Assembly (NCBI GenBank): GCA_030431515.1
Contig: JAUIIX010000038.1
Span: 1-32,264, forward strand
DNA length: 32,264 nucleotides
Direction of reading: 5' to 3'
From: a bacterium
Lineage (GTDB): Bacteria; Bacteroidota; Ignavibacteria; Kapaibacteriales; UBA2268
Positions 3,001 to 31,208 of the stretch are shown here, in pieces (within the stretch, counting starts at the first letter, position 1; each line of letters begins with the position of its first letter). The notes beneath the pieces are model-generated. The model was not told where the DNA came from. It saw only the letters and a program-made list of their open reading frames with translations, and searched no databases. The position numbers and the translations under genes are program-made.

Positions 3001-5874
3001 CCTCTAACTGAGGGCTGGGATGATATCGAAATTGATTTAAGAAAATTAACTTCAATTAAATCAGTGAGAGATCCTTCAAGAATTAACGAAAGACAAGAGT
3101 TTGCAGCTAATAATGGAAATCCAAATGCGACTTATGCAATCAAGGGAACTCCAATTTTAACTCGTGTTACTTTCTTTGGCTTTGGTGTTGCAAACCCAAG
3201 CGAGAGATTCCCTAATGATTTATCAACTTGTGCTTGGATAGACGAGTTGCGGCTAACAGATGCTGAAAATAGTAATGATTGGGCAGCTAATGCAAGTGCA
3301 AACTTACAATTAGCCGACCTTGGTACGATTAACGCCTCCTTTAATAAAAAACAAGCGAACTTCCATAAACTTGAAGAACGCTTTGGTGATCGTAATAATG
3401 ATGGTGGACTAACTATTCAGATGTTAGGTAATTTAGAAAAATTTGCTCCAAGATCTTTCAAGCAGATGAAAATTCCTATTTCTTATACTCACTCTGAGAT
3501 GCTATCAACTCCTCAATTTATTGCAAATACTGATTTATCTTTAGAAGAAGCCGCTAAAATTACTGCTGATAATATTATAGATAATGGCGGAACTCAAAAA
3601 GAAGCAGATGATGCTGCTAAAGAAATTAAGCAACGCTCTGAAGTCCTCAAAGTTCAAGATTCTTGGTCATTAACAGGTATCAAATTAGGTATTCCGATTT
3701 CTCATTGGACAATAAGTGAAACCTTGAATAAACTTAATTTTAGTTACTCTTATGCACAAGAATATACTCGTACACCAGTTTATGAATCTCGCTTCAACTG
3801 GTCTTGGAATTTGGAGGCAAATTATGCGAATACAATACCAGATATTTTAGCATTTCAACCAATAAAAGCAATTAAAGAAACCCCATTAATTGGAGTTTAT
3901 AGTGATTGGAAAATCAACTTTTTACCATCGAATATTGGTTTTGGTTTAAATATGAATAGAGGAAGGCAGACAGAACAATCTCGATTCTTGACCTTTGCTT
4001 CTCCTGTTGTTAGAAATTTCTTTGCTGATAGAAAAGCAAACTTCACTTGGAGATTAAGTCAAGGTGGTTTCTTATCTCCTTCATTTGATTATAGTTTTAA
4101 TACTCGCTCATCTATGATTGATTTAGAATTTGATGAATTTGGTAACCAAAGAACTGGGTCTGAAATTTCGAGTGCGATGTTTGGCAATGGAATAGATTTT
4201 GGTAGAAATACAATGCACAATCAAAATTTAACTATCAACTTCAAACCAGTATTACCAATTGGACTAATTGGAAAGTATTTAGATATGAATGGCTCGTATT
4301 CTGTTGGCTACAACTGGACTGACCCACTTCAACCAGATCCTGCTGTAAGAGATAGAGCAAAGAATGCAAATTATAATGGGCAATTCAGATATAATATTAA
4401 TTTGGGATTAAGAAAATTTGGTGATGATATTTTTGGAATAACTCCAGCAAATACATTTGGCAGAAGAAAGTCTGCAGATGGAAGCGGAGGATTGTCATTT
4501 TTACAAAGTGTAGCAATTACTCTAAAATCGATATTCTTAGATTATGATAAAATTAATATTACATTAAATCAAACTAATAACGCTACTAACCCTGGTATTT
4601 TTGGTGGAAATGGGATGAGTAATTTCTGGGGTAGGGGTTTAACTGGAAGAGAAAGTTTAGACCCATTCGGACCAAGTTTTGCTTATCAAATGGGACTAAT
4701 TTCTAATCCTCATGGTGGTATTAACTTTAATTCATCAAATCAATTTCCTTTTTTTTCTATAGAGACTTTCCCAGGATTAAGACCAGCCAATGGTAGATAT
4801 CAAGATAACTATAGGCAAAGTACAGATATGAATATTACTACAAACAGACCTCTTTGGGAAGGTGCTACTCTTGATTTAAGTTGGAGAACAGCTAAAAATT
4901 ATAATAGAAACCAAACTGTTTTAACAAATGTAGATGGTGTTCCTACTTTTACAAATATAATTGCAACAGAAACTCTTGAAAAAACTTTTATATCTTTACC
5001 AAAAGTATTTGGTTTTAATATATTTGGTAATACTATTCAAGATGTAGTTCAAAATTATGAAGTAGCAAGAGATCAAATAATATCAAGAACTGACATAGAT
5101 TCCCTTGATAAAAATAAATTACTAAATGCTGCTTTGGCAAAGAGTTTTTATACTCAATTAGAAACATTCTCACTTTCAGGTGTAGGTAATCTTGGAATGT
5201 TTTTACCGTCAATCAACTGGGGAATAAGATGGACTGGTATTGAAAAATGGAAATTGTGGGATGGCTATCTTAAAAAAGTTCAAGTAGATCACGCATTTAC
5301 TTCTAATTATACAGAGTCAGTTCAAATTACTGATAATGGTAGAGTAATTCAAAATCAACAAGTTACATCTGGATTTTCACCTTTGATTGGGGTAACTACT
5401 TCGTTTATGGAAGATAAATTAGACGGAACATTAACTGCTACAATCAGATGGAATAGAACCCAAGGATATAACTTAAATGCTGCTGCTAAGTCCGTAGTAA
5501 CTTCGCAAACTACCAATGAACTATCTATGCAAGCAAGTTACACTATGAATAGTTTCAATATTCCTTTCTTAGGATTCCAACTTAAAAATGATATAGAATT
5601 TATATTCTTAGGTTCATATAAATATAATGGTAGAGGTACATTTGATGTATTCGACCCTGCAAGTTTCGAAGGTGGAGATGAACAAGGGCGTGTGTTAGAT
5701 GGAAGTACTGTGATTAGCATTGAGCCACGAATAAGATATTCATTGTCTGAAAGATTAACTGCTTCATTCTTCGTTCGTTATGATGGTACTTTCAACGAAG
5801 GTGCTGCAAATCCTGGTTTCCACACAACTCAAGTAGGTTTAGACTTCAGACTTTCAATCGCTGGTGGAAGATAA
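1..5874 (+). CDS. sprA: SprA, T9SS outer-membrane translocon (5' end outside window)
   Basis: The frame is open from base 1 without a start, so the N-terminus lies upstream; 1957 residues are visible and the stop is TAA. SprA family proteins are about 2400 residues and form the very large outer-membrane beta-barrel through which type IX secretion cargo leaves the cell; in Flavobacterium SprA is also needed for gliding. The visible protein is rich in alternating polar and aromatic beta-strand sequence, with many N/G/W/F/Y residues and typical SprA stretches such as YLRPSND, VVYIDNFEASQRRITLGL and CAWIDELRLTD, and it ends with a barrel-like segment (IRYSLSERLTASFFVRYDG, GLDFRLSIAGGR). A TTG at 127 is not a credible start because coding sequence continues upstream of it. 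No terminator is obvious directly after the gene. The presence of SprA makes the CTD-bearing proteins elsewhere in this window plausible T9SS cargo. Confidence 0.93.
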   Translation, partial: VRGGKNLNPFSLRAYDYVRNYFFLHDDYKKVYTEYFKYSTPVLPVEFDSLSIKELEVWESTTQLTNTKVREAVAHASLPRLARGQNYPANFIDAQITAGQVEKGRFQLLDSTKWDVDYNLGTLRIENLSPDRTYAVSYRIQGPSQALDDDLRVGYMSSERGFDETMVLQLVHVRNLQPGFKELWSRQMRNIYNIGASNVDASSAKVNIWYLRPSNDSVDVIEGSNEKIVTIFGVDRTDNNGQVTPDGQFDLREPFFNANRGEITFPSVEPFRQGIIDYFDKLGKRQVADKYVYGDVYDTTWDVAKINTSRDRFIITGEVSGSSSNRIRLGAFNLAQGSVRISLDGSPLREYQDFVVDYFSGTVQLRNPRATLPNANLKIEFEQQDIFQVSTKTLAGLRADYNIIDRRRIRSDLGFTFLHYNQSAVIDQVQLGQEPVANTMLGFDAKLNWDMPWFTRMLDYLPFYDTKAKSTLDVLGEWALMIPEPNKRKSTIPSDDGESVVYIDNFEASQRRITLGLNPTLWSHSSSPLDLEIGETGEERNKFRAKTYWLQKFIPWIPQKNIYPDKEVLIGQNNVSPMEFFFDPYTRGIYNNNPEFLDPINPEFDETQAHFTDRFGSDGIPNKKKVWGGMMRLLSSFNTNFDNENIEFIEIMINVTNREASTRLYLDLGQVSEDIIANGALNTEDGITEASRLPNGMIDQGEDVGIDGLSNEQEKNNTDPSKLIFPYPLNLEDDPARDDYVFDFQKPVSEQASIDFINYNNYENNSKFSEVGAFPDTEILNDNNGQQVALDNSYFRYEIDIQNLNENTNSQIVGGNPEKGWYLFRIPIRKPSTRVGNPQFSNIQYVRLGAQGGVFSAWIADWALVGSQWQRINTFQSVPPTDSAMSVSFVNVFENSSSPDFYTMPPGVRSPRQINSPNPQQDIRLNEQSLRICVNNLRFGEERMATRIFQNMDIFYYKKLKFFIHGDGSMPPFISEGTIPTAYAYMRFGIDSNNYYEYRQPLTEGWDDIEIDLRKLTSIKSVRDPSRINERQEFAANNGNPNATYAIKGTPILTRVTFFGFGVANPSERFPNDLSTCAWIDELRLTDAENSNDWAANASANLQLADLGTINASFNKKQANFHKLEERFGDRNNDGGLTIQMLGNLEKFAPRSFKQMKIPISYTHSEMLSTPQFIANTDLSLEEAAKITADNIIDNGGTQKEADDAAKEIKQRSEVLKVQDSWSLTGIKLGIPISHWTISETLNKLNFSYSYAQEYTRTPVYESRFNWSWNLEANYANTIPDILAFQPIKAIKETPLIGVYSDWKINFLPSNIGFGLNMNRGRQTEQSRFLTFASPVVRNFFADRKANFTWRLSQGGFLSPSFDYSFNTRSSMIDLEFDEFGNQRTGSEISSAMFGNGIDFGRNTMHNQNLTINFKPVLPIGLIGKYLDMNGSYSVGYNWTDPLQPDPAVRDRAKNANYNGQFRYNINLGLRKFGDDIFGITPANTFGRRKSADGSGGLSFLQSVAITLKSIFLDYDKINITLNQTNNATNPGIFGGNGMSNFWGRGLTGRESLDPFGPSFAYQMGLISNPHGGINFNSSNQFPFFSIETFPGLRPANGRYQDNYRQSTDMNITTNRPLWEGATLDLSWRTAKNYNRNQTVLTNVDGVPTFTNIIATETLEKTFISLPKVFGFNIFGNTIQDVVQNYEVARDQIISRTDIDSLDKNKLLNAALAKSFYTQLETFSLSGVGNLGMFLPSINWGIRWTGIEKWKLWDGYLKKVQVDHAFTSNYTESVQITDNGRVIQNQQVTSGFSPLIGVTTSFMEDKLDGTLTATIRWNRTQGYNLNAAAKSVVTSQTTNELSMQASYTMNSFNIPFLGFQLKNDIEFIFLGSYKYNGRGTFDVFDPASFEGGDEQGRVLDGSTVISIEPRIRYSLSERLTASFFVRYDGTFNEGAANPGFHTTQVGLDFRLSIAGGR

Positions 5875-6206: not shown

Positions 6207-6346
6207 AAATAGTTGTTAATCCGTAAGGGAAATTAGATTCGCTGAAATTTTGAAATAATTTTCCTACTCTGTAACTTTTTTCCTTTTCATGTGTCAATTA
6301 AATAGAAAATTATAATAATTTCAAATATATTTATTAATTTAGAGTT

Positions 6347-8176
6347 ATGATATTAATACTTTTCATATTTTCTTTTATCAATTCTCAAGATATTATTAAA
6401 TATCCTGAGCAGTTACCTATTCATAATCAAGAGGTAATTGAACATCTAAAAAAGAAAGAGCAAGCTCAATTATTAGGAGATGAATATTGGGACGATGACA
6501 GAATACTTTTTTCTACTTATTTTGGTGGCTCTGGTTACGATTGTATTAATGACGGTGCTTTTGATAGTAAAGGGAATTTCATTCAAGTAGGATATACTGG
6601 AAGCCCTGATTTACCTATCGTAGGTGATGCTTTTCAAAAAGAAAAGAATCTAAATCACGATATGTTTATTGTAAAGTGGAATCCTGAAGGAGATGTAATT
6701 TGGTCAACTTTTCTTGGTGGCTCTGGTTCTGATGTTTTATATTCCGTAGCAATAGACAAAAATGATGATATAATAGTAGCAGGTAGAACAGAATCTACTG
6801 ATATAATAGTTTCAGATAATGCACCACAATTGAAAAATAATGGTGGAAGTGATTTTTATCTTGCAAAATTTACTACTGAAGGAGAATATGTTTGGTCAAC
6901 CTATTGGGGTGGAAGTAAAGAAGAATTACAATGTCGTATGGTTATTGATGAATCTGGTAATATTTATCTTGGTGGGACAACAAGCTCTACAGGCAAAAGC
7001 ACATTTAACAATATAATACTTCCAACTAATGAAGATGCGATTTATACTGAAGTTGTAAAACCAAGTACAGATGAAGAAACTTACTATACTACTTATATTT
7101 CAAAGTTGACACCTGAAGGAAAATATATTTGGGGTACATATTTTGGGAATAGAGGAGATGTAAGTGAGGTATTAACAGGATTAGATGTTTTTGGAGATGA
7201 AGTCGCATTTTCATGGGATTTATGGGGATATAGAGCAACTAAAGATGGAAATCATATTTTTGCTATAGTAACAGATGATGCAGAACAAAAAGAAGGAATA
7301 ACAATTGAAGGGCAATATCAAAATACTGGCTGGCAAACACAAGTTTTTAAAATTGACACAGTTGGTACAACTCTTAAATATGGAACTTTTTATAGTGGAG
7401 ATGATTGTATAAGTAGAAATATTAAATATGACAAAGATGGAAATTTAATTTTACATGTAGCAACATTTAGAGATATACCAAAAAAGGATTCAGTTTTTAA
7501 AAGTACTGGGAATTTAGTCTTTGTAAAATATAATAGAAATAATGAATTAGAATAGGACTTCGGATTTGGTTGCTTAGACAGAGGACTTGAAACTTATGAT
7601 TTTGATATTGATGAAAATAATGTTTTGTGGACGGCAGGAATTACTAGCTGTAATGAATTAGAACAAAACATAAATGCATTTCCTTCAAATCAAAAACCAA
7701 CAGGATTTATTTTTGTATTAGACCTTTCCACTTATAAAAATTGGCAAAGTTATATAGATTTAAGATTTCAAAAACAAAATTCAATAAAATGTTTGAAAAA
7801 TAAATTAATTGTATCTGGATGTAGTCCATATATTTTAACAAAAAGTCCTTATCAAATCAAAAAAGAAAATAATGAAAATGTTTGGGGTACTTTTTATATG
7901 TTAGGTATGAATGATGTTTTTAGTTATAATGATACATCGAGTATTGACACAACAAAAAAAGATTATGAGTATTATTATTACCTAGATGGTGACAAGTTAA
8001 TCATAACTTCAAAAGATTCAATTAATAATGTAAGTTTATATAATTTGAATGGAAGAGAGTTATTGAGAAAAAAATATTATTCAAATAGAATAGAAATAAA
8101 TGGAACAAAATATTCAAGTGGTGTTTATTTTGTAATAATAAACGAAGAAAAAATCTATAAGATTTTGAAGGAATGA
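6347..8176 (+). pseudogene. SBBP beta-propeller protein with T9SS sorting domain, split by an in-frame TAG
   Basis: The first part (6347-7555, 402 aa) starts with a short hydrophobic signal (MILILFIFSFINSQ) and contains SBBP-type propeller repeats: FSTYFGGSGYDCINDGAFD, WSTFLGGSGSDVLYSVAID, WSTYWGGSKEELQCRMVID and WGTYFGNRG. A TAG at 7553-7555 follows residues NNELE, but the same frame stays open without a gap (DFGFGCLDRGLETYDFDIDE and onward) to TGA at 8174-8176. The downstream part ends with a classical T9SS type A-like sorting domain (LIITSKDSINNVSLYNLNG, SSGVYFVIINEEKIYKILKE). A change of TGG to TAG would explain the break, since an ELEW-type junction is natural in SBBP repeats. As read, the product would be truncated before its sorting signal and not attached or exported by T9SS. 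A TTG at 7625 could start the second half but has no signal peptide. Alternatives are a sequencing error or low-level readthrough. Confidence 0.75.
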
Positions 8177-14138: not shown

Positions 14139-14671
14139 ATGAAATTATTATTGATGCCGCTTTAACACAAGGTTCGGGCCAATTTTCCCATAAAGTATTA
14201 GTTTCATAGGATGATGGCAACACATTTAAAGAAATAAATGATGGGCTTTCTACAAAAGCTAAAGTAAGTGGAGGCGAATTTCATTTATACGGAGATAAAA
14301 TTTTATTTTGTTCGCAATCAGGTATATTCCATAGAAATTTAGAAGAACTTGGAATCACACTTACCTCAGTCGAAAAAACCGAGCAACGAAACTATCTATA
14401 TACATTCCCACCATTTCCACAACCAACAAAACAAGAGGTAAAAATAAGCACTTATTGGGATAGTGCATTGCCTTTTACTGCTGATGATGTAGAAATTTAT
14501 AATTTAGCTGGTATTAAAATTAATACTGATAACAAACTAAGCATCAACAAAGAATCAAACTACAATGGACATATAATTTGGGACACAAGTGGTGAACAAA
14601 CAGGAATATATATAGTTAATATAAAACACGAAACTGAAACAAGAATGCAGAAAGTAATGGTAGAAAAGTAA
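14139..14671 (+). pseudogene. Remnant of an Asp-box beta-propeller/T9SS-CTD gene
   Basis: An ATG at 14139 with AAAGG upstream gives only MKLLLMPL before a stop. The downstream frame (phase of 14372) is coding-like from about 14129, with a TAG at 14207-14209 inside an Asp-box (LVS-stop-DDGNTFKEINDG). It then stays open to TAA at 14669-14671. The last 99 residues (from 14372) form a T9SS CTD about 89% identical to that of the gene ending at 23762 (shared NYLYTFPPFPQPTKQEVKIS, DDVEIYNLAGIKINT, HIIWDTS, QKVMV). So promoter, start and C-terminus remain, while most of the propeller is deleted and the frame is broken. A plain terminator follows. Confidence 0.8.
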
Positions 14672-20917: not shown

Positions 20918-21520
20918 ATGAAAAATTTCATTTCATTTATAATTATTACTTTCACATTATTGATTTTGTCTAATGTAGTGAGTAAAGGGCAGTGCCAAAG
21001 TGGATATACTCAACAAATAATTACACTTAATATTGGGGGATGCAACTACGATATTGAATTGTGTTATAAGTGTTCAGTTACTGATCCAGGTGAAGTTATT
21101 ATTAATAGTGTAATTAAAGAGCCAACAGTTCCATATTGCTCTGGTTGGGATTTTGTTGATGTGGTTAATTATGCTAATGCCTATTTAACTTCAGGTCAAT
21201 TTATATATTCTATGTTATGTCTATGGACTGATATTCCTCCTTGCGAAACACAGCGGTCTTCAAAAATAATAAAATATAAAATGCCATTATGTTGGAAAGA
21301 GTTGAATGATTATAATTATTATCATGAACATACAATAAAAGCTATACCTTGTAATAGTGATTATTGTGAAGTTTCAGTTAAGTATTGCAAAAATGCTCAA
21401 GGTGAAATGATAACCACTTATTTAGATGTAACTTTACATGATGAAATACCAAATTGTCCCGAATATGATAATGTTAATTTCGGGGAATGTTTTATTGTAA
21501 AGACGCAATGTAACCCATAG
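20918..21520 (+). CDS. Small secreted cysteine-rich protein
   Basis: 200 aa. Signal peptide MKNFISFIIITFTLLILSNVVSKG, with the mature protein probably starting near QCQSGYTQQ. The mature part has 14 cysteines (for example GGCNYDIELCYKC, DYCEVSVKYC and a C-terminal TQCNP), an even number consistent with extracellular disulfides. No T9SS CTD and no family that I recognise. Ribosome binding site AGAGG lies 9 bases before the ATG. A strong hairpin follows the stop and the next gene is an exported Asp-box propeller, so the two form a probable secreted-protein unit downstream of regulatory module B. Confidence 0.7.
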   Translation: MKNFISFIIITFTLLILSNVVSKGQCQSGYTQQIITLNIGGCNYDIELCYKCSVTDPGEVIINSVIKEPTVPYCSGWDFVDVVNYANAYLTSGQFIYSMLCLWTDIPPCETQRSSKIIKYKMPLCWKELNDYNYYHEHTIKAIPCNSDYCEVSVKYCKNAQGEMITTYLDVTLHDEIPNCPEYDNVNFGECFIVKTQCNP

Positions 21521-21528
21521 ATTGTTTA

Positions 21529-21555
21529 GAGTAACAGGTATTTATCCTGTTACTC
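21529..21555 (+). terminator. Hairpin between the Cys-rich and propeller genes
   Basis: Perfect 10-bp stem GAGTAACAGG (21529-21538), loop TATTTAT, CCTGTTACTC (21546-21555). It is followed by ATTATATTATTA, not a pure T-run, so it may be a weak terminator, a processing signal or an mRNA-stability element separating expression of the two genes. Confidence 0.6.
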
Positions 21556-21581
21556 ATTATATTATTAAAAAGGATTAAATT

Positions 21582-23762
21582 ATGAAAGCAGTTTTATTTT
21601 TATTATTAACACAAATCTCAGTTTTTTCCCAATGGAAAGAAATAGAATCACCTAATGGACGAATTTCTGCACATTATTATTTGTATAATAATGATTTTGA
21701 ATTACTTATGAATAACACTGAAATATTTCAAACTGAAGATAATTGGAATAATTTTGTTGCAGTTGAAAGTAATTTTTTAGATTCAATTGGTTATATCAAT
21801 GATATATTTTTTTATGATAATTTAATTTATTTATCAACAATATATGATATTAGTAATAAAATAGGGGGTGGTGTATATTATAGTAGTGACAAAGGTTTAA
21901 ATTGGCATATATTATCAGATACAATGAAAAATAAATATTACTATGCATTTAAAAAAAATGGTGATTTTACGTATAGTTTAACAAAAGATGGTCTTAATCT
22001 TTATAATTCAGAGAATAATCAAAATAAATTAATTTCAAAATACTATGATCCTAAGTTAAAAGATTCTATTAAAATCAGAGGTAATAATATTTATTTTAAT
22101 GAGTCAAATAATATTATTATTATTAATTCTTTTACAAATAGTTTACCTGGCTTATTAATTTCGACAGATAATGGTAATAGTTTTTCAGAAATATTTCTTT
22201 TAAATGATTATAGAGATATAATCAATAAAGTCTTTTGGAAATCAGATACTATTTTTGTTGCTTCGAGTAAAGGAATATTTATATCTTATGATTTAGGACA
22301 AAACTGGAAGCCAATAATCAATAAAAATGGAGATAACTTTATTACAGACATTGTATATTTGAACTCTAATTTATTTGCAAGTTCCGATAAAGGCAACGTT
22401 TATAAAATTGTACTTAATAGTGAGGAATGGGAAATGGTATTTAACAGTAACTCTATTAAATCAATTCGACTATATGATTATCAAGATGAGTTGTTTTTTA
22501 CATCAACTCACGGTTTATATAAATATAATGAATCAAGTAATAGTTTTTCAGAAAAAGAAATTTTTATTAAAAGTACTAATTATAGTTTACAAACTGAAAA
22601 AGACAGTCTTTATTTGGTTACAACTAATTCTGGAATACCAAAAACAATCAGTGGAGATAATTTCAATTGGAAGCAATTAAATGACTCACTTTTTATTGAT
22701 GGATTTAACATTGATAATTTTTCTAAATCTGACTCCTTAATTCTATGTTCTTATTTTTCATTTAGTGGGGTAATTATTTCTAAAGACTACGGAAAAACGT
22801 GGACTTACAAATTATTACCTACGAATTCAAGTGGAATTAAAACTTATGTAACCAACTCTCATATATATCAGAATAAATTTTTTATAACTACAATAGATGG
22901 TAGATTACTTATTTCTAAAAATATGGGTAACACATGGTTAGAAAGTAAATATGATTCAAAGTATTCTGAAACATTTACAAATATTTTTATGTTTGATGGT
23001 ATGTACTTTGGAACAACTAAATCAAATGGTATATTAATTTCTACTGACGATGGTGATACTTGGAAAAAGATAAACTCAGATACTACTGATTTAATGGAAA
23101 AGCAGTATGTTAGATTATTGGCAAAAAATAAAAATAATTTGTTGGCAGATTCAAAAGATTTAAACTTAATAAAATCATCTGATAATGGAAAGAGTTGGAA
23201 TAAGACTTTCTTTTCTGAAGAAAATATCTCTATTCTAAAGATTGCAAACTACAGATCTAATTTCTTTATTTTAACGGATAATGGGTTTTATTTTTCTACT
23301 GATAATGGAAATACTTTTAAGTTGTACAATAATGGTATAGAGAAGGAAGATTTTCAAGAAATGAAAGATGTTATTGTCTTTGGAAGTAATTTAGTTTTAT
23401 GTTTTAACAGAGGAATTTACACCCTACCTCTTTCCGAACTCGGAATTGAATACACCACCGTAGAAAAAACAGAAAAACGAAACTACCTCTATACATTCCC
23501 TCCATTTCCACAACCCACTAAACAAGAAGTAAAAATAAGCACTTACTGGGATAGTGCTTTACCTTTTACTGTTGATGATGTAGAGATTTACAACTTAGCA
23601 GGAATTAAGATAAACACTACAAATAAACTTAGCATCAACAAAGAAACAAACTATAACGGACATATAATTTGGGACACAAGCAGTGAACAAGCTGGTATTT
23701 ATATAGTTAATATCAAACATGGAACAGAAAGCAGAACTCAGAAAGTAATGGTAGTAGATTGA
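21582..23762 (+). CDS. Secreted Asp-box beta-propeller protein with T9SS sorting domain
   Basis: 726 aa. Signal peptide MKAVLFLLLTQISVFSQ. The body has at least seven Asp-box motifs (SxDxGxxW/F): STDNGNSF, SYDLGQNW, SKDYGKTW, SKNMGNTW, STDDGDTW, SSDNGKSW and STDNGNTF, typical of sortilin/YCF48/BNR-like propellers. Residues 628-726 form a CTD with NYLYTFPPFPQPTKQEVKIS, then VEIYNLAGIKINT, HIIWDTSSEQAGIYIVNIKH and QKVMVVD, the sequence pattern of T9SS type A signals. It should be exported through SprA and anchored or released at the surface. AAAAAGGA precedes the ATG. Its CTD is nearly the same as that of the remnant at 14372-14671. Ligand unknown. Confidence 0.85.
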   Translation: MKAVLFLLLTQISVFSQWKEIESPNGRISAHYYLYNNDFELLMNNTEIFQTEDNWNNFVAVESNFLDSIGYINDIFFYDNLIYLSTIYDISNKIGGGVYYSSDKGLNWHILSDTMKNKYYYAFKKNGDFTYSLTKDGLNLYNSENNQNKLISKYYDPKLKDSIKIRGNNIYFNESNNIIIINSFTNSLPGLLISTDNGNSFSEIFLLNDYRDIINKVFWKSDTIFVASSKGIFISYDLGQNWKPIINKNGDNFITDIVYLNSNLFASSDKGNVYKIVLNSEEWEMVFNSNSIKSIRLYDYQDELFFTSTHGLYKYNESSNSFSEKEIFIKSTNYSLQTEKDSLYLVTTNSGIPKTISGDNFNWKQLNDSLFIDGFNIDNFSKSDSLILCSYFSFSGVIISKDYGKTWTYKLLPTNSSGIKTYVTNSHIYQNKFFITTIDGRLLISKNMGNTWLESKYDSKYSETFTNIFMFDGMYFGTTKSNGILISTDDGDTWKKINSDTTDLMEKQYVRLLAKNKNNLLADSKDLNLIKSSDNGKSWNKTFFSEENISILKIANYRSNFFILTDNGFYFSTDNGNTFKLYNNGIEKEDFQEMKDVIVFGSNLVLCFNRGIYTLPLSELGIEYTTVEKTEKRNYLYTFPPFPQPTKQEVKISTYWDSALPFTVDDVEIYNLAGIKINTTNKLSINKETNYNGHIIWDTSSEQAGIYIVNIKHGTESRTQKVMVVD

Positions 23763-25485: not shown

Positions 25486-25544
25486 TGAGATGAGGAATCC
25501 AAAAAATAATCCACCCCAAAATGTAACAAAATAGACCCTATTGT
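25486..25544 (+). promoter_or_regulatory. Dispersed regulatory module, copy C, upstream half (interrupted)
   Basis: GATGAGGAAT, then AAAAAATAATCC, then core ACCCCAAAATGTAACAAAAT at 25513-25532, matching copy A in both the GGAAT-TCC flank and the core. The downstream half with TATAAT is not here; it is found 4.1 kb away after the mobile element (29562-29643). Confidence 0.6.
25521..25544 (+). repeat. attL, left attachment site
   Basis: 24 bp identical to 29562-29585. It lies within the core of regulatory module C. It contains TGTAAC, the reverse complement of the GTTACA that is repeated at internal sites near both ends of the element. Confidence 0.8.
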
Positions 25545-25580
25545 TTTTTCATTAGTGTTTATGCTTGTTTCAGGGCTTTC

Positions 25581-25599
25581 AGTTACAAAATGAGTTACA
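25581..25599 (+). repeat. Internal 19-bp repeat, left copy (candidate integrase arm site)
   Basis: AGTTACAAAATGAGTTACA, made of two AGTTACA units 12 bp apart. It is identical to 29435-29453 and lies 37 bp inside attL. Confidence 0.65.
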
Positions 25600-25888
25600 A
25601 TTTTGTAATATTTAGCATTATTTAACACTTTTTTTATACTTTTTTACATCTTACTTTTATATTGACTACAAAAGAAATTTTTTATTATATCTTAGCAGCA
25701 ATAAACTAAATTTTGAATAGTGCTTAGTTTTAGAAGTGTTTAAGTGTCAAGCAATGGAATACATCTCAATTTTATTGTTTTCAGGTGGAGGGCTTGAAAA
25801 TTGTTTTAATATTGTTATTAGCTCCAGTAATCTAATTTTAACAGATATTGCTAATTTATTGCTGTTGCTGCTAAGGATAAAGTATAAG

Positions 25889-25909
25889 AAAAGCCCTCAA
25901 AGAGCTTTT
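25889..25909 (-). terminator. Possible terminator hairpin beyond rep
   Basis: Stem AAAAGC (25889-25894) and GCTTTT (25904-25909) with a 9-base loop. On the minus strand the stem ends in GCTTTTCTT, a weak T-run. It is a candidate end for the minus-strand xis-rep transcript, about 370 bp past the rep stop. Confidence 0.3.
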
Positions 25910-26023
25910 AAATAATTAAGCATAGTTTTATACTAAAATTATATTAAAATTCAATAGTGGGCTTGTATGGTGCTTTATTTTGTATTTATGACTATTTTAA
26001 ATACATAAAACTCTTCTTAGGGT

Positions 26024-26083
26024 TGTAATTCTTGCAATTTTACTTTTATAGAGTGTAATTCTTGCAATTTTCTCTTTTATAGA
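26024..26083 (+). repeat. Two tandem 30-bp repeats, candidate iterons
   Basis: Unit 1 at 26024-26053 and unit 2 at 26054-26083 share TGTAATTCTTGCAATTTT and a trailing TTTTATAGA. Each contains the palindrome TTGCAA within AATT..AATT. A partial third TTTTATAG follows at 26101. They lie about 190 bp from the rep stop and are possible Rep-binding sites. Confidence 0.55.
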
Positions 26084-26274
26084 TATGACAAAACTCCCTT
26101 TTTTATAGTGTTAACTTTGTTCACTTATGAATAAATCTTAGTTTTTTATTTCTACTAAGCATAAGACAAATAGTTATTAAGTCAATAGATTAGTAGTATT
26201 AAGTGCAAAATAGTTTTTGAAGTAAATTTACAGCTTAATTTTTAAAGTTGCTTAGAAGTCCTTTAAATAGCTTT

Positions 26275-27207
26275 TTAGATGGTTTCACTTAGCTCCTTGC
26301 TAAATTTATCATTAATCTTTTCTCTTAACTCAGCTCCTAAAGAGTTGTTTTCAATCTCAAAGCCCTTGCCTCTTTCTCTAAATAGTTTCCTTATTCTACT
26401 TTTTTCATTTGGAGAAACATTATATTCCTTAAAGTAAATTTCTAAACTTGCAAGCCACTTATTTAACTTTGGAGTATTCATTAGAAACATAATTTTTCTA
26501 ATATCTGAGTAATTTTTAAACTCAGGTATTTTGTAATAATCATCAATTTGTATTCTATCTAAATTCTTTTTTGCATCACTCAATATAAGTTTTTTAGTTT
26601 TGTTTTCAAATAAGTCTTTCACTTTTAAGCTCTCTTTTAATTTTAATTTAGTTTGAATTAAATGTGGTCTTTTAACTTCACACCTAAGCAAATTAACATC
26701 TACATACTCAGGTTTTAAAAGTTCTTTGTTAAATTTTACTTCACTTGTTTTGTCATACATAACTATTTGCAAGTAGTCATTTTTATTCTTATGATTTGCA
26801 CCAATACCAAATACTTTACCAGTAAGACCTTTTTTGTTTTTATAAGGGCTTTCTTTAAATAAAGTTGGAGTAATTAGAGAATTAATATAAAGAGGTGGAG
26901 CAACCTCAGTTTTAAAGTTTGCTCCTATCTCATATTGATAAACATTAAAGTTACTTATATCAATATCAATTTCAGCATCTAAACAATTTAAGTATTCTAA
27001 GCAGTCATTATAAGAACAATCCTCATAATTATTACCAATTCCATACTTTTGAATAGAGCCACTTATATTAATAATATTTTCATCAATATAAACATTGATA
27101 TTGTTGAATTTTTTAAAATAACTTTTATTATCTTTTGTATTTTGAATATAATTCTCTAAATTTGTGTTATGTTTATTTACACTATTTAAGAATATATAAT
27201 CAATCAT
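26275..27207 (-). CDS. Phage/plasmid replication initiation protein (Rep, Phage-CRI-like)
   Basis: 310 aa. The layout resembles the replication proteins of filamentous-phage-like and small plasmid elements of Bacteroidota: a DNA-processing N-half with ININ/ISGSIQKYGIGNNYEDCSYN and YEIGANF, then YLQIVMYDKTSEVKF, then LLRCEVKRPHLIQTKL, where alternating basic and acidic residues and the RxEVK pattern are typical, followed by a helical DNA-binding C-half. Such proteins nick the origin to begin rolling-circle replication. The catalytic Tyr cannot be fixed from sequence reading alone. The gene overlaps the 154-aa gene by one base (TAATG), so it is translationally coupled. No coat or assembly genes are nearby, so the element would depend on a helper if it were phage-derived. 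Confidence 0.55.
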   Translation of the reverse strand: MIDYIFLNSVNKHNTNLENYIQNTKDNKSYFKKFNNINVYIDENIINISGSIQKYGIGNNYEDCSYNDCLEYLNCLDAEIDIDISNFNVYQYEIGANFKTEVAPPLYINSLITPTLFKESPYKNKKGLTGKVFGIGANHKNKNDYLQIVMYDKTSEVKFNKELLKPEYVDVNLLRCEVKRPHLIQTKLKLKESLKVKDLFENKTKKLILSDAKKNLDRIQIDDYYKIPEFKNYSDIRKIMFLMNTPKLNKWLASLEIYFKEYNVSPNEKSRIRKLFRERGKGFEIENNSLGAELREKINDKFSKELSETI

Positions 27208-27671
27208 TAGTTACCTATTTTTGTATAAAAGTTACTATTGATATTATATTGGTAATTCTGAGAGTGCAATCTCAAAATTTCATTCTTAAAGTCAGCATCT
27301 TTTAAAAGCCCCTCTATTTTGTCAGTAGAGGGTTTTTTTATGTCCAATACATAAAAGTCTATTGTTTCAGGTTTCTCTTTGTCAGGTTCTAACTTAATCA
27401 AAATTAGCTCCTCAGTTGCTTGAATATCTCCTAAGCAATACATACTATCATTTAGTTGCATTACTCTTGTTATATGATTATGTCCATCTGAAATTCTATG
27501 AGTAGCTTTTAACTTGCCTTGCTTATCTCTTTGAATTGAAGAGTAATATATACCAAACTCATTATTAGAATATTTTTTTAATAATCTCATATCTATTTGT
27601 AGAGCTTTATCTAACATATAGACTACTTTGTTATTTGGTTTTTTTGTGAAGTGTAAATGGTTACTTATCAT
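27207..27671 (-). CDS. Conserved-looking unknown protein of the mobile element
   Basis: 154 aa, no signal peptide and no membrane segment. Charged with mixed alpha/beta character; segments RISDGHNHITRVMQLNDSMY and EELILIKLEPDKEKPETIDF resemble a small beta-rich domain, but I recognise no family. It is enclosed in the xis-unknown-rep operon: 4-bp ATGA overlap with the HTH gene and 1-bp overlap with rep. The position suggests an accessory replication or regulatory role; this is inference. Confidence 0.6.
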   Translation of the reverse strand: MISNHLHFTKKPNNKVVYMLDKALQIDMRLLKKYSNNEFGIYYSSIQRDKQGKLKATHRISDGHNHITRVMQLNDSMYCLGDIQATEELILIKLEPDKEKPETIDFYVLDIKKPSTDKIEGLLKDADFKNEILRLHSQNYQYNINSNFYTKIGN

Positions 27672-27961
27672 TTTACACCTCTAAAATTATTCTGAGTATA
27701 TTCCTCAGCAAGTTGCTTAGCATTCTTTTGAGGTTTGCTTAAAAGCCAGTTGTCAAGCTCATTCCTATCAAAGTAAATTTGTTTTCCATTTGGTTTATAA
27801 AATGGAATTAAATTCCTATGAGTTAATTGATAAAGGTATGTTTTGGATATACCTATATAATTACTTGCCTCACTCATTGTAAGTGCTTTCTTATTGTTTA
27901 AGCTATTATTAATGATAAAGTCTAATTTATCATTTAGCTCATTATACATTGTAGCAGTCAT
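27668..27961 (-). CDS. Excisionase-like MerR-type helix-turn-helix protein
   Basis: 97 aa. Residues 22-70 form an excisionase-family HTH domain: LTMSEASNYIGISKTYLYQL (HTH) followed by HRNLIPFYKPNGKQIYFDR and ELDNWLL (wing). Such proteins bend att DNA during excision or control the int/rep operon. First gene of the operon with a good ribosome binding site (ATAGGAGC, then AATTCAA before ATG on the minus strand). Confidence 0.8.
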   Translation of the reverse strand: MTATMYNELNDKLDFIINNSLNNKKALTMSEASNYIGISKTYLYQLTHRNLIPFYKPNGKQIYFDRNELDNWLLSKPQKNAKQLAEEYTQNNFRGVK

Positions 27962-28347
27962 TTGAATTGCTCCTATATTTGTTTTAAAATATATTTACTC
28001 TTATTAATATTTGGGTAATATTATAAAAAGTGAAATAACTATAAAGCAAAATTAAAAGAAACTAATGACAAAACAAAATTTTGATTATCATAACTTGTTG
28101 ATATATATAAAATTATATTTGTATTTGGAAAATATTATTTTAATTAAAAAAAATAGTTTTTAAATATTAAAAAGAGGTATAATATAGGTAACTTGCATAA
28201 TATATTTAATTATTATGAATTTAGAATAATACATTAAAAATTCTTAATTAATAATAGGAGCATTAATAAAACAGAGTAGTAAATTTAAAATTGTTAGAAT
28301 TGTTGAAAACTTTATTTGTTTTATTCTGTAAAGTGTAATTCCTACTT
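27962..28347. other. Non-coding spacer between xis-like gene and integrase
   Basis: Very AT-rich, 386 bp, no gene. It holds the operon promoter for xis-rep on the minus strand; I see nothing else definite. Confidence 0.5.
28020..28050 (-). promoter_or_regulatory. Candidate promoter of the xis-rep operon
   Basis: On the minus strand TTGCTT (28049-28044), 18-bp spacer, TATAAT (28025-28020), about 60 bp upstream of the ATG at 27961. It is close to the sigma70 consensus. Confidence 0.4.
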
Positions 28348-29403
28348 TTAAATCTCCAAATTAGGAATAGAATTAATAGCATTAACTTTGTTTTCATTGA
28401 TAAGATTAGAATAAATTTCAGTCATAGAGACGCTTGAGTGTCCTAATAACTTTGAAACCGTGTATATATCAACACCACTTGAAAGTAAGATTGTAGCAAA
28501 GGTATGCCTTGAGCAATGGTAAGTAATATGCTTAGTAATTCCAGCCAGTTCACAAATTGCCTTTAATTGATATTCAATAGTTCGCCTTTGCTTAGGTAAA
28601 TTAAATATATAGTCATTCTCTTTGTCTATATCATTTAATATTTTGTTAGCAGTAGCATTTAAAGGTATAGTCTCATATTTGCCAGTTTTCTTAATTTTCA
28701 AGTAAATAGAGTTCCCTCTAATATCATTCCATTGCAAATTTTTTACATCAATCATTCTAAGACCAGTAAAGCAAGAAAAAATAAAAGCTACTTTTGTATG
28801 ATTGAATTTATCTACTTTTGAAAATAAATCTATTTCATTAAATGTTAGATATTCTCTTTTAGTGCTTTCTTTTTTTAACTTCTTAATATGAGTAGTTGGA
28901 TTTTTAGAGATATATTCTTTCTCAATACACCAGTTGAAAAAAGTAAACAGATAACTTATATATTGATTAATAGTAACATTCTTAATTTCTCTATCTTTCA
29001 AATGAATAAAAAAATTATCAATCAATAATTTATCTACACTTTTAATAGATGCACCAGCTCCAACAAAATTTAAGAATACTTGAAAATTATACTTAGCATT
29101 AGCATAAGAATTACTATTTACATATTTCTCTAAATATAAATTTAAAACTTGCTCTACATTGTTATTTCTCTTAATAACTCCAATAGAAACACCATCATTA
29201 ATTTGCTTTTCTCTTTGCTCTCTAATTGATTCAGCTAAAGCAAGGACTTCATAGTCTTTCTTTTTATTTCCAGTAAGTTTTAGAGTGCTTTTCCCATCAA
29301 CAGAATACAAAGTTTCATTTGTTCTTTTCCCATTTTTATAATAGTCCAGCCACAAAGAAAAGCCACCTTTTGATAATTTCCTTTTTCTAAGAATAACACT
29401 CAT
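28348..29403 (-). CDS. Tyrosine recombinase/integrase
   Basis: 351 aa. N-terminal arm-DNA-binding segment (residues 1-60; LSKGGFSLWLDYYKNGKRTN), a SAM-like core-binding domain (about 80-180), then the catalytic domain. The active-site residues are visible: Arg216 in CFTGLRMIDVKNL, Lys239 in IKKTGKYETIPL, His296-x-x-Arg299-His300 in ITYHCSRHTFA, His322 in LLGHSS and the nucleophile Tyr331 in MTEIYSNL. It sits at the right end of the element, reading inward, 158 bp from attR, the usual arrangement for int genes. It should recombine the 24-bp core sites, and AGTTACA repeats near both ends are candidate arm sites. No Shine-Dalgarno is evident. Confidence 0.95.
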   Translation of the reverse strand: MSVILRKRKLSKGGFSLWLDYYKNGKRTNETLYSVDGKSTLKLTGNKKKDYEVLALAESIREQREKQINDGVSIGVIKRNNNVEQVLNLYLEKYVNSNSYANAKYNFQVFLNFVGAGASIKSVDKLLIDNFFIHLKDREIKNVTINQYISYLFTFFNWCIEKEYISKNPTTHIKKLKKESTKREYLTFNEIDLFSKVDKFNHTKVAFIFSCFTGLRMIDVKNLQWNDIRGNSIYLKIKKTGKYETIPLNATANKILNDIDKENDYIFNLPKQRRTIEYQLKAICELAGITKHITYHCSRHTFATILLSSGVDIYTVSKLLGHSSVSMTEIYSNLINENKVNAINSIPNLEI

Positions 29404-29434
29404 ATTTTTTGTATTTTGTTTTAAATATAAAGCA

Positions 29435-29453
29435 AGTTACAAAATGAGTTACA
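29435..29453 (+). repeat. Internal 19-bp repeat, right copy (candidate integrase arm site)
   Basis: AGTTACAAAATGAGTTACA, identical to 25581-25599, located just upstream of int and 108 bp inside attR. Confidence 0.65.
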
Positions 29454-29561
29454 TAATTACAAAAATAATAGTAAAATAAGGATAAAAGAAAAGTAAAGGA
29501 AATGAGTTAAGTCTTTGATATAATATATTTATAGTATATGGTTTTTTTATAGTTTTTTTAT

Positions 29562-29585
29562 ATGTAACAAAATAGACCCTATTGT
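29562..29585 (+). repeat. attR, right attachment site
   Basis: 24 bp identical to 25521-25544; the chromosomal half of regulatory module C resumes here. Confidence 0.8.
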
Positions 29586-29643
29586 GTTTATAGTATATAT
29601 TACATTTACAAATTTTAAAAAATGTTTTTTATTTTTGTATAAT
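29562..29643 (+). promoter_or_regulatory. Dispersed regulatory module, copy C, downstream half
   Basis: The core now has only ATGTAACAAAATAGACCC because the CCACCCC upstream part stayed at the left end of the mobile element. TATAAT at 29638-29643 lies 76 bp after the ATGTAAC. AGGGG at 29687-29691 and an ATG at 29698 follow. This should be the promoter for the small-protein operon. Confidence 0.55.
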
Positions 29644-29697
29644 TGTTCAAATATTATTAAGCAAATTTATTTTTTATATTTATTTTAGGGGTTTTAT

Positions 29698-29934
29698 ATG
29701 ATGAATTGCTTTAAGTATCTAAATAGTTCTAAATCCATATATATATATATGGCGATTGCATTTAATATATTTATATTTGACTCGTCACCAAATTTAGTCG
29801 CTGATGATAAATTAAACTCATTATAAAAACCTGAATCAAAAATTGAAGAATTAACACTTTATATGATTGAATTGAAAAAAGAGAATGAAAAACTAAAAAC
29901 ACAAATATCACAAATTAAAGGAATAAGAAAATGA
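29698..29934 (+). pseudogene. Small exported coiled-coil protein interrupted by an in-frame TAA
   Basis: ATG at 29698 after TAGGGG reads MMNCFKYLNSSKSIYIYMAI, with a hydrophobic segment to about residue 28, then SSPNLVADDKLNSL and TAA at 29824-29826. The same frame continues KPESKIEELTLYMIELKKEN, then EKLKTQISQIKGIRK, to TGA at 29932-29934. The tail is a clear short coiled coil, and its stop overlaps the next ATG by ATGA. Coupling and continued coding bias suggest a 78-residue original gene; an internal ATG at 29863 could still make the tail. The (AT)7 run makes a CC(AT)7GG palindrome at 29735-29752. Confidence 0.5.
29735..29752. repeat. CC(AT)7GG palindrome
   Basis: A perfect 18-bp palindrome containing seven AT units in the hydrophobic segment of the gene at 29698, comparable in place to the (TA)11 at 20677. 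Confidence 0.7.
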
Positions 29935-30482
29935 AAAATCTATTAATATTATCAATGCTAACTATCTTCTTTTTTGCTTGCAAAGATGAAGGAGAAGCTG
30001 GTCCGCAAGAGGAAGAGGTTATTGAAGAAATAATTTATACAGTTTATAAGGAAAATGAAGGTTTTACTTGTGATACTTTGATTTTAAAGAGTGATTCATC
30101 ATTAGTAATATTCAAAACCAGATGTGAAAATAATCCAAATTATATTGAGAAATTTTACAATGAAGATGTATTACATTTTATTGATACACTAGTAAATCGA
30201 CCAGAATTAAAAATTGATTTAAAATATAAATTTGAAGATATCTTTGATTCAACTGCATTAAAATTTTTTTATGATTTACCTGAAAATTCTACACATAATA
30301 TATTTAATTCAATTGTAAATTATAGCTTTAGTATTAAAACTATAACAAACAAACAAGAAAAAATAGTTAATTTCAATTTTAAAAGAAAAAATGAATATGA
30401 TATTATTGATTCTTTGTTATTAAAACTATTTGAAATAAGAGAATATCACGTTTTAAGATTAGCAAATAAATACAAAGGATAA
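29931..30482 (+). CDS. Small lipoprotein, paralogue of the following gene
   Basis: 183 aa. Lipoprotein signal MKNLLILSMLTIFFFACKDE with the lipid-accepting cysteine at residue 17, then an acidic linker (EEEVIEE). The C-terminal two thirds (FYNEDVLHFIDTL, DIFDSTALKFFYDLP, IDSLLLKLFEIREYHVLRLAN) aligns with the product of 30485-30928 in order and spacing. No known family. ATGA overlap with the interrupted gene upstream and a 2-bp gap downstream show a compact operon. Confidence 0.65.
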   Translation: MKNLLILSMLTIFFFACKDEGEAGPQEEEVIEEIIYTVYKENEGFTCDTLILKSDSSLVIFKTRCENNPNYIEKFYNEDVLHFIDTLVNRPELKIDLKYKFEDIFDSTALKFFYDLPENSTHNIFNSIVNYSFSIKTITNKQEKIVNFNFKRKNEYDIIDSLLLKLFEIREYHVLRLANKYKG

Positions 30483-30484
30483 CA

Positions 30485-30928
30485 ATGAATAAATTATTAT
30501 TTTTCGTAATATTTGTTTCCTTTGTTCTAATATTACATTCAAAAGAGACAGTTTTAATAAAATCAAAATACAGTAAAAGTGTAGAATTAGATTCTATTTA
30601 TAAATTTTATAATAAAAATGTTGAGAGTTTTATAGATACTTTAAATGGAAAACAAAATATTTTAAATATTGAAAACGATTTTGATGATATAACAAAGTAT
30701 TTAGATATTGATAGTTTTTTCGAACTTAATGACTCAGTAGCAATTAAATACCCTGGATTTTTTCATTGGAGCATTTTAGTAAGAACTAACAAAAGAGATA
30801 AGAACATTTATGTATATGTTAACCCAACAAGTACAAATATTCTTGTAGAGGATCTAGTTTATCTTTTAGTTAATTTTAATAATTATCATCAAAGACGAAT
30901 TGCTAATTTATTAGGCGGTTGGGAATGA
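30485..30928 (+). CDS. Small exported protein, paralogue of the preceding lipoprotein
   Basis: 147 aa. Signal peptide MNKLLFFVIFVSFVLILHSK without a lipobox. FYNKNVESFIDTL, DFDDITKYLDIDSFFEL and VEDLVYLLVNFNNYHQRRIAN match the preceding lipoprotein, so the two arose by duplication but may now occupy different places (lipid-anchored and soluble). Function unknown. Its stop overlaps the next ATG (ATGA, 30925-30928). Confidence 0.65.
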   Translation: MNKLLFFVIFVSFVLILHSKETVLIKSKYSKSVELDSIYKFYNKNVESFIDTLNGKQNILNIENDFDDITKYLDIDSFFELNDSVAIKYPGFFHWSILVRTNKRDKNIYVYVNPTSTNILVEDLVYLLVNFNNYHQRRIANLLGGWE

Positions 30929-31167
30929 AAACTAACAACATATTAACTCCATTACTATTAATATTTTTGTTTTCACAAGTTAAATCAAATCTATTTAATA
31001 AAATTGATTTTACTTCTGAAAAACAAATTTTATTTGAAAGTTATCTTGATAATGGATATAATCAATTTGAAATTGAAACAAGCAAATATAATACTGGTAC
31101 ATACGTTTATAACGTATTAATTGATGGACAACTTGTAAAGTCAGGTAAATTTATAAAAGTGAAGTAG
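30925..31167 (+). CDS. Minimal signal-peptide plus T9SS-CTD-like protein
   Basis: 80 aa from the ATG at 30925, which overlaps the upstream stop; a TTG two codons earlier is an unlikely start. Signal peptide MKTNNILTPLLLIFLFSQVKS is followed almost at once by a CTD-like end: NQFEIETSKYNTGTYVYNVL, then IDGQLVKSGKFIKVK, the usual final strands of T9SS type A domains. There is hardly any cargo domain between, so it may be a carrier-like or truncated protein. Terminator directly after. Confidence 0.6.
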   Translation: MKTNNILTPLLLIFLFSQVKSNLFNKIDFTSEKQILFESYLDNGYNQFEIETSKYNTGTYVYNVLIDGQLVKSGKFIKVK

Positions 31168-31178
31168 TTTTAATAACT

Positions 31179-31208
31179 AAGACCTTACTATAAAGTAAGG
31201 TCTTTTTT
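31179..31208 (+). terminator. Rho-independent terminator of the small-protein operon
   Basis: Perfect 11-bp stem AAGACCTTACT (31179-31189), loop ATAA, AGTAAGGTCTT (31194-31204), T-run to 31208. Confidence 0.92.

Follow-up and report, generated by a model that had tools for sequence, protein, structure and literature searches.

The window, by which we mean the whole stretch of 32,264 nucleotides analyzed here, carries near its right end three closely packed genes (29931-31167) encoding a putative lipoprotein (lipo), an exported paralog of it (sol) and a very short exported protein with part of a T9SS CTD (CTD80). These genes and the neighboring features are listed in Table 1.

Table 1. Features at the right end of the window (positions are those of the window)
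Feature	Position	Strand	Remarks
Genome-recurrent repeat, in part before other surface-protein units	29562-29686	+	Promoter-like by position only
Stump of a surface-protein gene with coiled-coil tail	29827-29934	+	35 codons and stop
lipo, 183-aa putative lipoprotein	29931-30482	+	ORF call; lipobox FFAC by eye
sol, 147-aa exported paralog of lipo, without lipobox	30485-30928	+	Plain signal peptide by eye
CTD80, 80 aa from ATG 30925, signal peptide and partial T9SS CTD, no passenger	30925-31167	+	
Intrinsic terminator ending the three-gene unit	31179-31204	+	
Exported protein of the YCF48/BNR type, truncated at the contig end	31232-32264	+	PF14870, 31 bits (cut-off 27)

The open reading frames lie exactly where the earlier note had placed a lipoprotein, a soluble paralog and an 80-aa frame, and the tight coupling and the paralogy it described are both confirmed. 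The lipo gene (549 bp without and 552 bp with its stop codon) is separated from sol by 2 bp, sol and CTD80 overlap in an ATGA at 30925-30928, and lipo and sol align with 26% identity over 141 aa (BLASTP, E = 2e-6) and with 28% (E = 3.4e-5) in a search of their own genome. Each of the three scores as coding in its own frame, above the five other frames, with a score reached by 0 of 1000 shuffles in every case; the chance of 80 stop-free codons, as in the CTD80 frame, is about 0.001. The intrinsic terminator (one found, against a mean of 0.1 in shuffles) makes CTD80 the last gene of the unit. Library searches gave no useful Pfam or NCBIfam match for lipo or sol, and none of useful strength was obtained against solved chains, the best match to a PDB sequence having an E-value of 0.028. 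No relatives of sol were found in a scan of GTDB contigs, and its AlphaFold model, built from 2 sequences, has a pLDDT of 40 and is too poor for use.

The boundaries proposed for the unit hold for the three genes and fail at the start, which was set one gene too late: lipo is preceded by the stump of a surface-protein gene, the TGA of which overlaps the ATG of lipo, again as ATGA. The stump has a codon usage of 0.223 bits per codon, a score reached by 7 of 1000 shuffles, and matches the C-terminal part (278 aa) of a surface protein from another genome, G025, with 68% identity over 31 aa (E = 2.8e-5). When these C-terminal 278 aa were used as query against the own assembly (3.55 Mb, completeness 100), the stump was the sole match at an E-value of 0.01. 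Further upstream, between an integrase gene and the stump, lies the genome-recurrent repeat, for which a DNA search identified 8 further sites (E < 1e-9, 74-86% identity), all beginning at the same base (query 160). Four copies were aligned and the downstream side was read for four; behind three of these (C133, C118, and C145) comes a small Cys-rich protein, a YCF48/BNR-type gene or both, and behind the fourth (window 14033) an orphan CTD frame. We also noticed that a pair formed by a Cys-rich 200-aa exported protein and a YCF48-CTD protein (20918-23762) has counterparts at C133 and C118, in both cases behind a repeat of this type.

The region to the left of the repeat is a small integrative element (25521-29585) with a tyrosine integrase (28348-29403), an excisionase-like HTH protein (27668-27961) and two unknown genes. 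An exact direct repeat of 24 bp (25521-25544 and 29562-29585) flanks the element, and its right copy is the start of the genome-recurrent repeat.

Homologs of lipo were accepted in two of the 122 other genomes of the order (G025:C92:74605 and G016:C123:38533). A search with lipo across 60 genomes, its own included, gave matches in 14 at an E-value of 1, from which the G025 protein was accepted (E = 2.8e-4). The G016 protein was missed by the lipo query alone and by profile A2 at an E-value of 0.1; it was recovered with a profile built from lipo, sol and the G025 protein (A3, E = 5.4e-4) and by hhalign (E = 4.6e-7, signal peptide included). At an E-value of 0.001, profile A3 matched four of the 123 genomes of the order, own genome included (G000, G025, G016, and G071). 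Most matches of the lipo query at an E-value of 1 and of profile A2, which at an E-value of 0.1 gave matches in 24 of 54 genomes, were dropped as weak, many being limited to the signal-peptide part. The same applies to G071:C33 (E = 9.4e-4, positions 1-55) and G017:C159 (E = 2.1e-4, positions 1-67), both signal-peptide matches, and to G017:C70 (E = 0.02 with the lipo query, residues 1-58), which is a row of alignment A2 and therefore matches the A2 profile strongly by construction.

In both genomes with an accepted homolog, the lipoprotein gene is directly preceded by a coiled-coil-tail surface gene, read in two overlapping frames in G025, and directly followed by an M12B metalloprotease. The sequence link between lipo and the G016 protein is modest, and this gene order is the stronger argument. 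The two proteases match Reprolysin_5 (1.7e-17 in G025 and 8e-16 in G016), align with each other at an E-value of 1e-7 and have the HELGH zinc motif in common. Their CTDs score 28.0 and 23.7 bits against TIGR04183, both above the cut-off of 23, and 24 and 32 bits against PF18962 (cut-off 27). In the window, no protease and no trace of one is found beside lipo, and sol and CTD80 are there instead; G025 and G016 have no counterpart of sol. We regard lipo as a possible partner of a secreted protease that was presumably lost, or as its inhibitor. It was also considered whether sol might be a fusion of a protease signal region with a lipo body; the match of sol residues 1-45 to the start of the G025 protease (score reached by 3 of 2000 shuffles; mature part alone, 940 of 2000) likely reflects signal-peptide composition.

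A similar arrangement of small lipoproteins and secreted proteases has been described in Tannerella forsythia, where KLIKK protease genes are directly preceded by genes for small lipoproteins, the potempins (PMC7296668, PMC4404884). As described in these sources, potempins inhibit the co-expressed protease, and six of these lipoprotein ORFs are not significantly similar to one another; the genes are 360-550 bp long (PMC4404884). The G025 and G016 loci are alike in that a small lipoprotein stands directly before a T9SS-CTD protease and in that the lipoproteins have little sequence in common; the T. forsythia locus, too, is described as containing pseudogenes (PMC4404884, PMC7296668). The size of the lipo gene fits the potempin range at its upper edge, and its lipobox was recognized by eye. 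By this analogy the two pairs look like potempin-protease pairs, with inhibition being hypothetical. Unlike the KLIKK operons, the proteases here are of the M12B type, a surface-protein gene stands in front, and a KLIKK end is absent (KFIKVK in CTD80, KIINLK at the C-terminus of the G025 protease). In the window, moreover, the lipoprotein is doubled and no protease follows, so a defining feature of a potempin-protease operon is missing and we do not assign the locus to that class.

Across the family, coiled-coil-tail genes gave 28 matches in 15 of 54 genomes, query locus included, 27 of them with readable downstream DNA. A small lipoprotein follows in 12 of the 27, a count made by eye (a pattern flagged seven, of which one was dropped, and six were added) that includes three units of one array and the query locus itself. 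A YCF48/BNR-type gene follows in 5 of the 27, in one case with a score of no more than 24.9 bits, and other frames follow in the rest. The order at G005:C72 resembles the window, with a coiled-coil gene, a lipoprotein (likened to lipo by position, which does not imply homology), a shortened frame for an exported protein, a frame of 70 aa comprising only a CTD, and a BNR-type gene. The earlier note had suggested a small undescribed surface system. Its surface character is supported, as lipo is part of a type of surface operon that recurs and includes T9SS-secreted partners; one conserved system of the three genes is not supported, the trio not having been found, at the search sensitivity used, in any of the 53 other genomes of the family, many of which are incomplete. 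In a limited literature search, we found no description of this operon type, in which a surface protein and a small lipoprotein are followed by a protease or a YCF48/BNR-type protein.

A separate observation concerns G010:C41 (1-12000), an array of units each composed of a tail stub, a lipoprotein and a CTD cargo. Two units agree at 90% identity over 628 bp that span the end of the CTD cargo and the tail stub. Lipoprotein starts are 89-98% identical over 125-164 bp, and the tail of the full gene matches a stub with 74% identity over 486 bp. The four lipoproteins have almost the same first 38 residues and widely differing bodies, and the array looks like a cassette-diversifying locus.

CTD80 consists of a signal peptide of about 21 residues, as judged by eye, followed by approximately the last 57 residues of a T9SS CTD. 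Its homology to two CTDs of the same genome that pass PF18962 (C113, 30.9 bits; C54, 34.2 bits) and the retention of G58, K75 and the end of the domain liken it to the T9SS type A CTD (PF18962/TIGR04183), from which it differs in scoring below both cut-offs (15 bits against 27 and 13.6 bits against 23, respectively) and in having neither the first part of the domain nor a passenger. The T9SS-CTD-like end recognized earlier is real but scores weakly against the libraries; it is clearer in the comparison with C113 (37% identity, E = 1.1e-4, score reached by 0 of 2000 shuffles); the match to C54 is weaker (36%, E = 0.0065). A complete type A CTD is a 3+4 beta-sandwich, of which the approximately 57 residues of CTD80 would be only a part; in the weak predicted model (pLDDT 55), strands are formed by residues 49-56, 59-66, and 69-77. 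A fold assignment was discarded, the best Foldseek hits being unrelated chains (E = 0.54). The T9SS translocon is encoded in the genome, with SprA (TIGR04189, 775.9 bits) at 1-5874 of the window; the single SprA relative from a named genome, an Ignavibacteriaceae MAG, stood at 26%. The targeting signal of HBP35 is described as localized to the last 22 residues of its CTD (PMC11285876), so a shortened CTD such as that of CTD80 may still be recognized. Small CTD proteins have also been described, namely Fjoh_0547 (112 aa) and PorA (246 aa) (PMC7712824). They are like CTD80 in having a short passenger or none before the CTD, the 112 aa of Fjoh_0547, for which the comparison is with its description, probably leaving little room for one; CTD80 is shorter and its CTD incomplete, and PorA differs in its FimH-like domain.

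Besides itself, CTD80 has 51 family matches at E-values up to 0.01, of which 47 lie in frames of at least 174 aa and four in frames of 64-146 aa. At G000:C54 and G073:C12 and in G074, G017, and G020, the frames read upstream measure 560-1260 aa. Within the own genome, C54 has a frame of 1255 aa, the end of which is matched by a CTD frame of 67 aa at C113. Each of these tails precedes a YCF48/BNR-type gene, the two genes being paralogs, and the C113 frame is a cut-off counterpart of the end of the C54 frame. Given the relatives in larger frames, the C113/C54 pair and the order at G005:C72, the best reading of CTD80 is that it is the end of a larger protein. This also bears on the earlier description of CTD80 as a bare CTD protein that might deliver or cap partners: the family search did not show the 80-aa frame to be conserved in this form, and most relatives lie in larger frames, both of which the earlier note had named as refuting outcomes; nothing was found in support of delivery or capping. 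We favor less the view that CTD80 derives from the tail of the lost protease, as it scores 12.6 bits with a profile made from five cargo tails of that kind, compared with 22.9 bits for YCF48/BNR-type tails, 29.0 bits for G010-type tails and 41.5 bits for tails found with CTD80, a value biased by the construction of that profile from CTDs that CTD80 itself had found. In direct comparison with the G025 protease tail, the score of CTD80 was reached by 4 of 2000 shuffles.

Bare tails are not confined to this locus. A census of the own genome scored at least 150 CTDs among 215 candidates (CTD80 was absent among those listed), at least six of them in frames of up to 120 aa, two of which are at contig ends. 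Among the short frames that could be read (C42, C110, and C113), no signal peptide was seen. Bare tails with a signal peptide occur at G010:C114, where a 104-aa signal peptide and CTD frame (TIGR04183, 18 bits, cut-off 23) lies between lipoprotein genes, and at G075:C77 (2121-2450 of locus L187), where a 99-aa signal peptide and coiled-coil tail, a coiled-coil counterpart of CTD80, overlaps a lipoprotein gene.

CTD80 stands 64 bp before the YCF48/BNR-type gene, with the terminator in between. A 91% identical copy of this gene at C133 has no trio before it, and the trio is thus not bound to the downstream gene. Among 30 inspected relatives of CTD80, a YCF48/BNR-type gene follows at -42 to +82 bp in 12, one is at a contig end and 17 have none; in a comparison set of 19 G010-type CTDs, three are followed by such a gene, 15 are not and one is at a contig end. 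Sequences used to build the profile recur in these counts (one of the 12 and two of the three). The YCF48/BNR profile for the neighbor counts was made from ten proteins picked by eye, and the neighbor matches at C113, G005:C72, and G016:C98, as profile members, arise by construction. In a Pfam scan of ten such genes, all had a BNR, Sortilin-Vps10 or YCF48 match at an E-value of up to 0.01, and YCF48 (PF14870) was found in nine, above its cut-off in three.

These observations suggest that the three genes are probably, with considerable room for doubt, a remnant, rearranged where two surface-protein units meet, rather than an intact new system. The first ancestral unit would have comprised a surface protein with a coiled-coil tail, a small lipoprotein and a T9SS-secreted protease, and in the window its surface gene would have been cut to the last 35 codons, its protease lost and its lipoprotein doubled to give lipo and sol. 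The second would have comprised a larger exported CTD protein followed by a YCF48/BNR-type protein, of the former, only a signal peptide and the final portion of the CTD would now be left. The lipo protein would be exported, lipidated and held in the membrane, and sol would be exported without an anchor; both may once have restrained a co-expressed secreted protease in a potempin-like manner and may now serve only in immunity or scavenging. Sec would export CTD80, which carries nothing; with the end of its CTD retained, this protein could still enter the T9SS. The remnant reading is weakened by several observations: CTD80 starts at a clean ATG, its codon usage is native and a signal peptide is recognizable by eye, features that a chance stub would not need; frames of signal peptide plus tail exist in G010 and G075; the link between lipo and the G016 protein is weak and sol has no counterpart in G025 or G016; 17 of the 30 CTD80 relatives lack a YCF48/BNR-type gene behind them; a terminator separates CTD80 from the next gene; and no trace of a protease is left beside lipo.

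Part of the same evidence can be read as use rather than decay. With lipo homologs adjoining M12B-CTD proteases, two paralogs kept as open frames, and potempins being small lipoproteins before secreted proteases that they are said to inhibit (PMC7296668), lipo and sol might restrain a protease encoded elsewhere in the genome, CTD80 being irrelevant; as no protease adjoins them in the window and the best solved-chain match has an E-value of only 0.028, we consider this rather unlikely. It appears unlikely, too, that the genes form a working minimal system, in which lipo and sol would be a surface or periplasmic pair and CTD80, as a genuine protein made only of a tail, would cap that pair or else occupy or prime the T9SS or its shuttle. 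The clean operon with its coupling and terminator, the coding signal in all three genes, and the bare tails with signal peptide beside lipoprotein genes at G010:C114 and G075:C77 are in line with it; against it, searches of the family and the order did not find the trio elsewhere, CTD80 lacks the first part of its CTD, and the partner is purely hypothetical. A broader version, in which exported tail-only proteins (signal peptide plus surface-protein tail) form a genuine class in this lineage, are translated together with small lipoproteins and act as T9SS or shuttle placeholders, decoys or adaptors in shuffled arrays of lipoprotein and secreted-protein cassettes, seems quite unlikely to us; its candidate members would be CTD80 and the G010:C114 and G075:C77 frames, and a function for bare tails is possible.

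The integrase, the excisionase-like gene and the 24-bp direct repeat raise the further question of whether the tyrosine-integrase element (25.5-29.6 kb) and the adjoining recurrent repeat simply joined unrelated ends with no common history. Such an insertion product is highly improbable in our view, as the direct repeat does not extend to 29.6 kb and the coiled-coil tail meets the start of the lipoprotein much as it does in the relatives. On the remnant reading, an orphan-looking trio is tied to a recurrent, fast-diverging operon type, and the locus suggests a route by which T9SS cargo genes erode to bare tails, some of which retain a signal peptide. The G025 and G016 loci provide two clean lipoprotein-protease pairs for probing the inhibitor role.

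Two other places in the window also show CTD genes in an altered state. The 153-aa frame at 14210-14671 is another orphan tail; its CTD closely resembles the one in the 726-aa protein at 21582-23762, and each scores 35.8 bits against PF18962. The frames at 6338-7555 and 7556-8176 are in the same reading frame with one stop codon between them, and, as the second ends in a CTD-like tail, the two look like one interrupted CTD protein gene.
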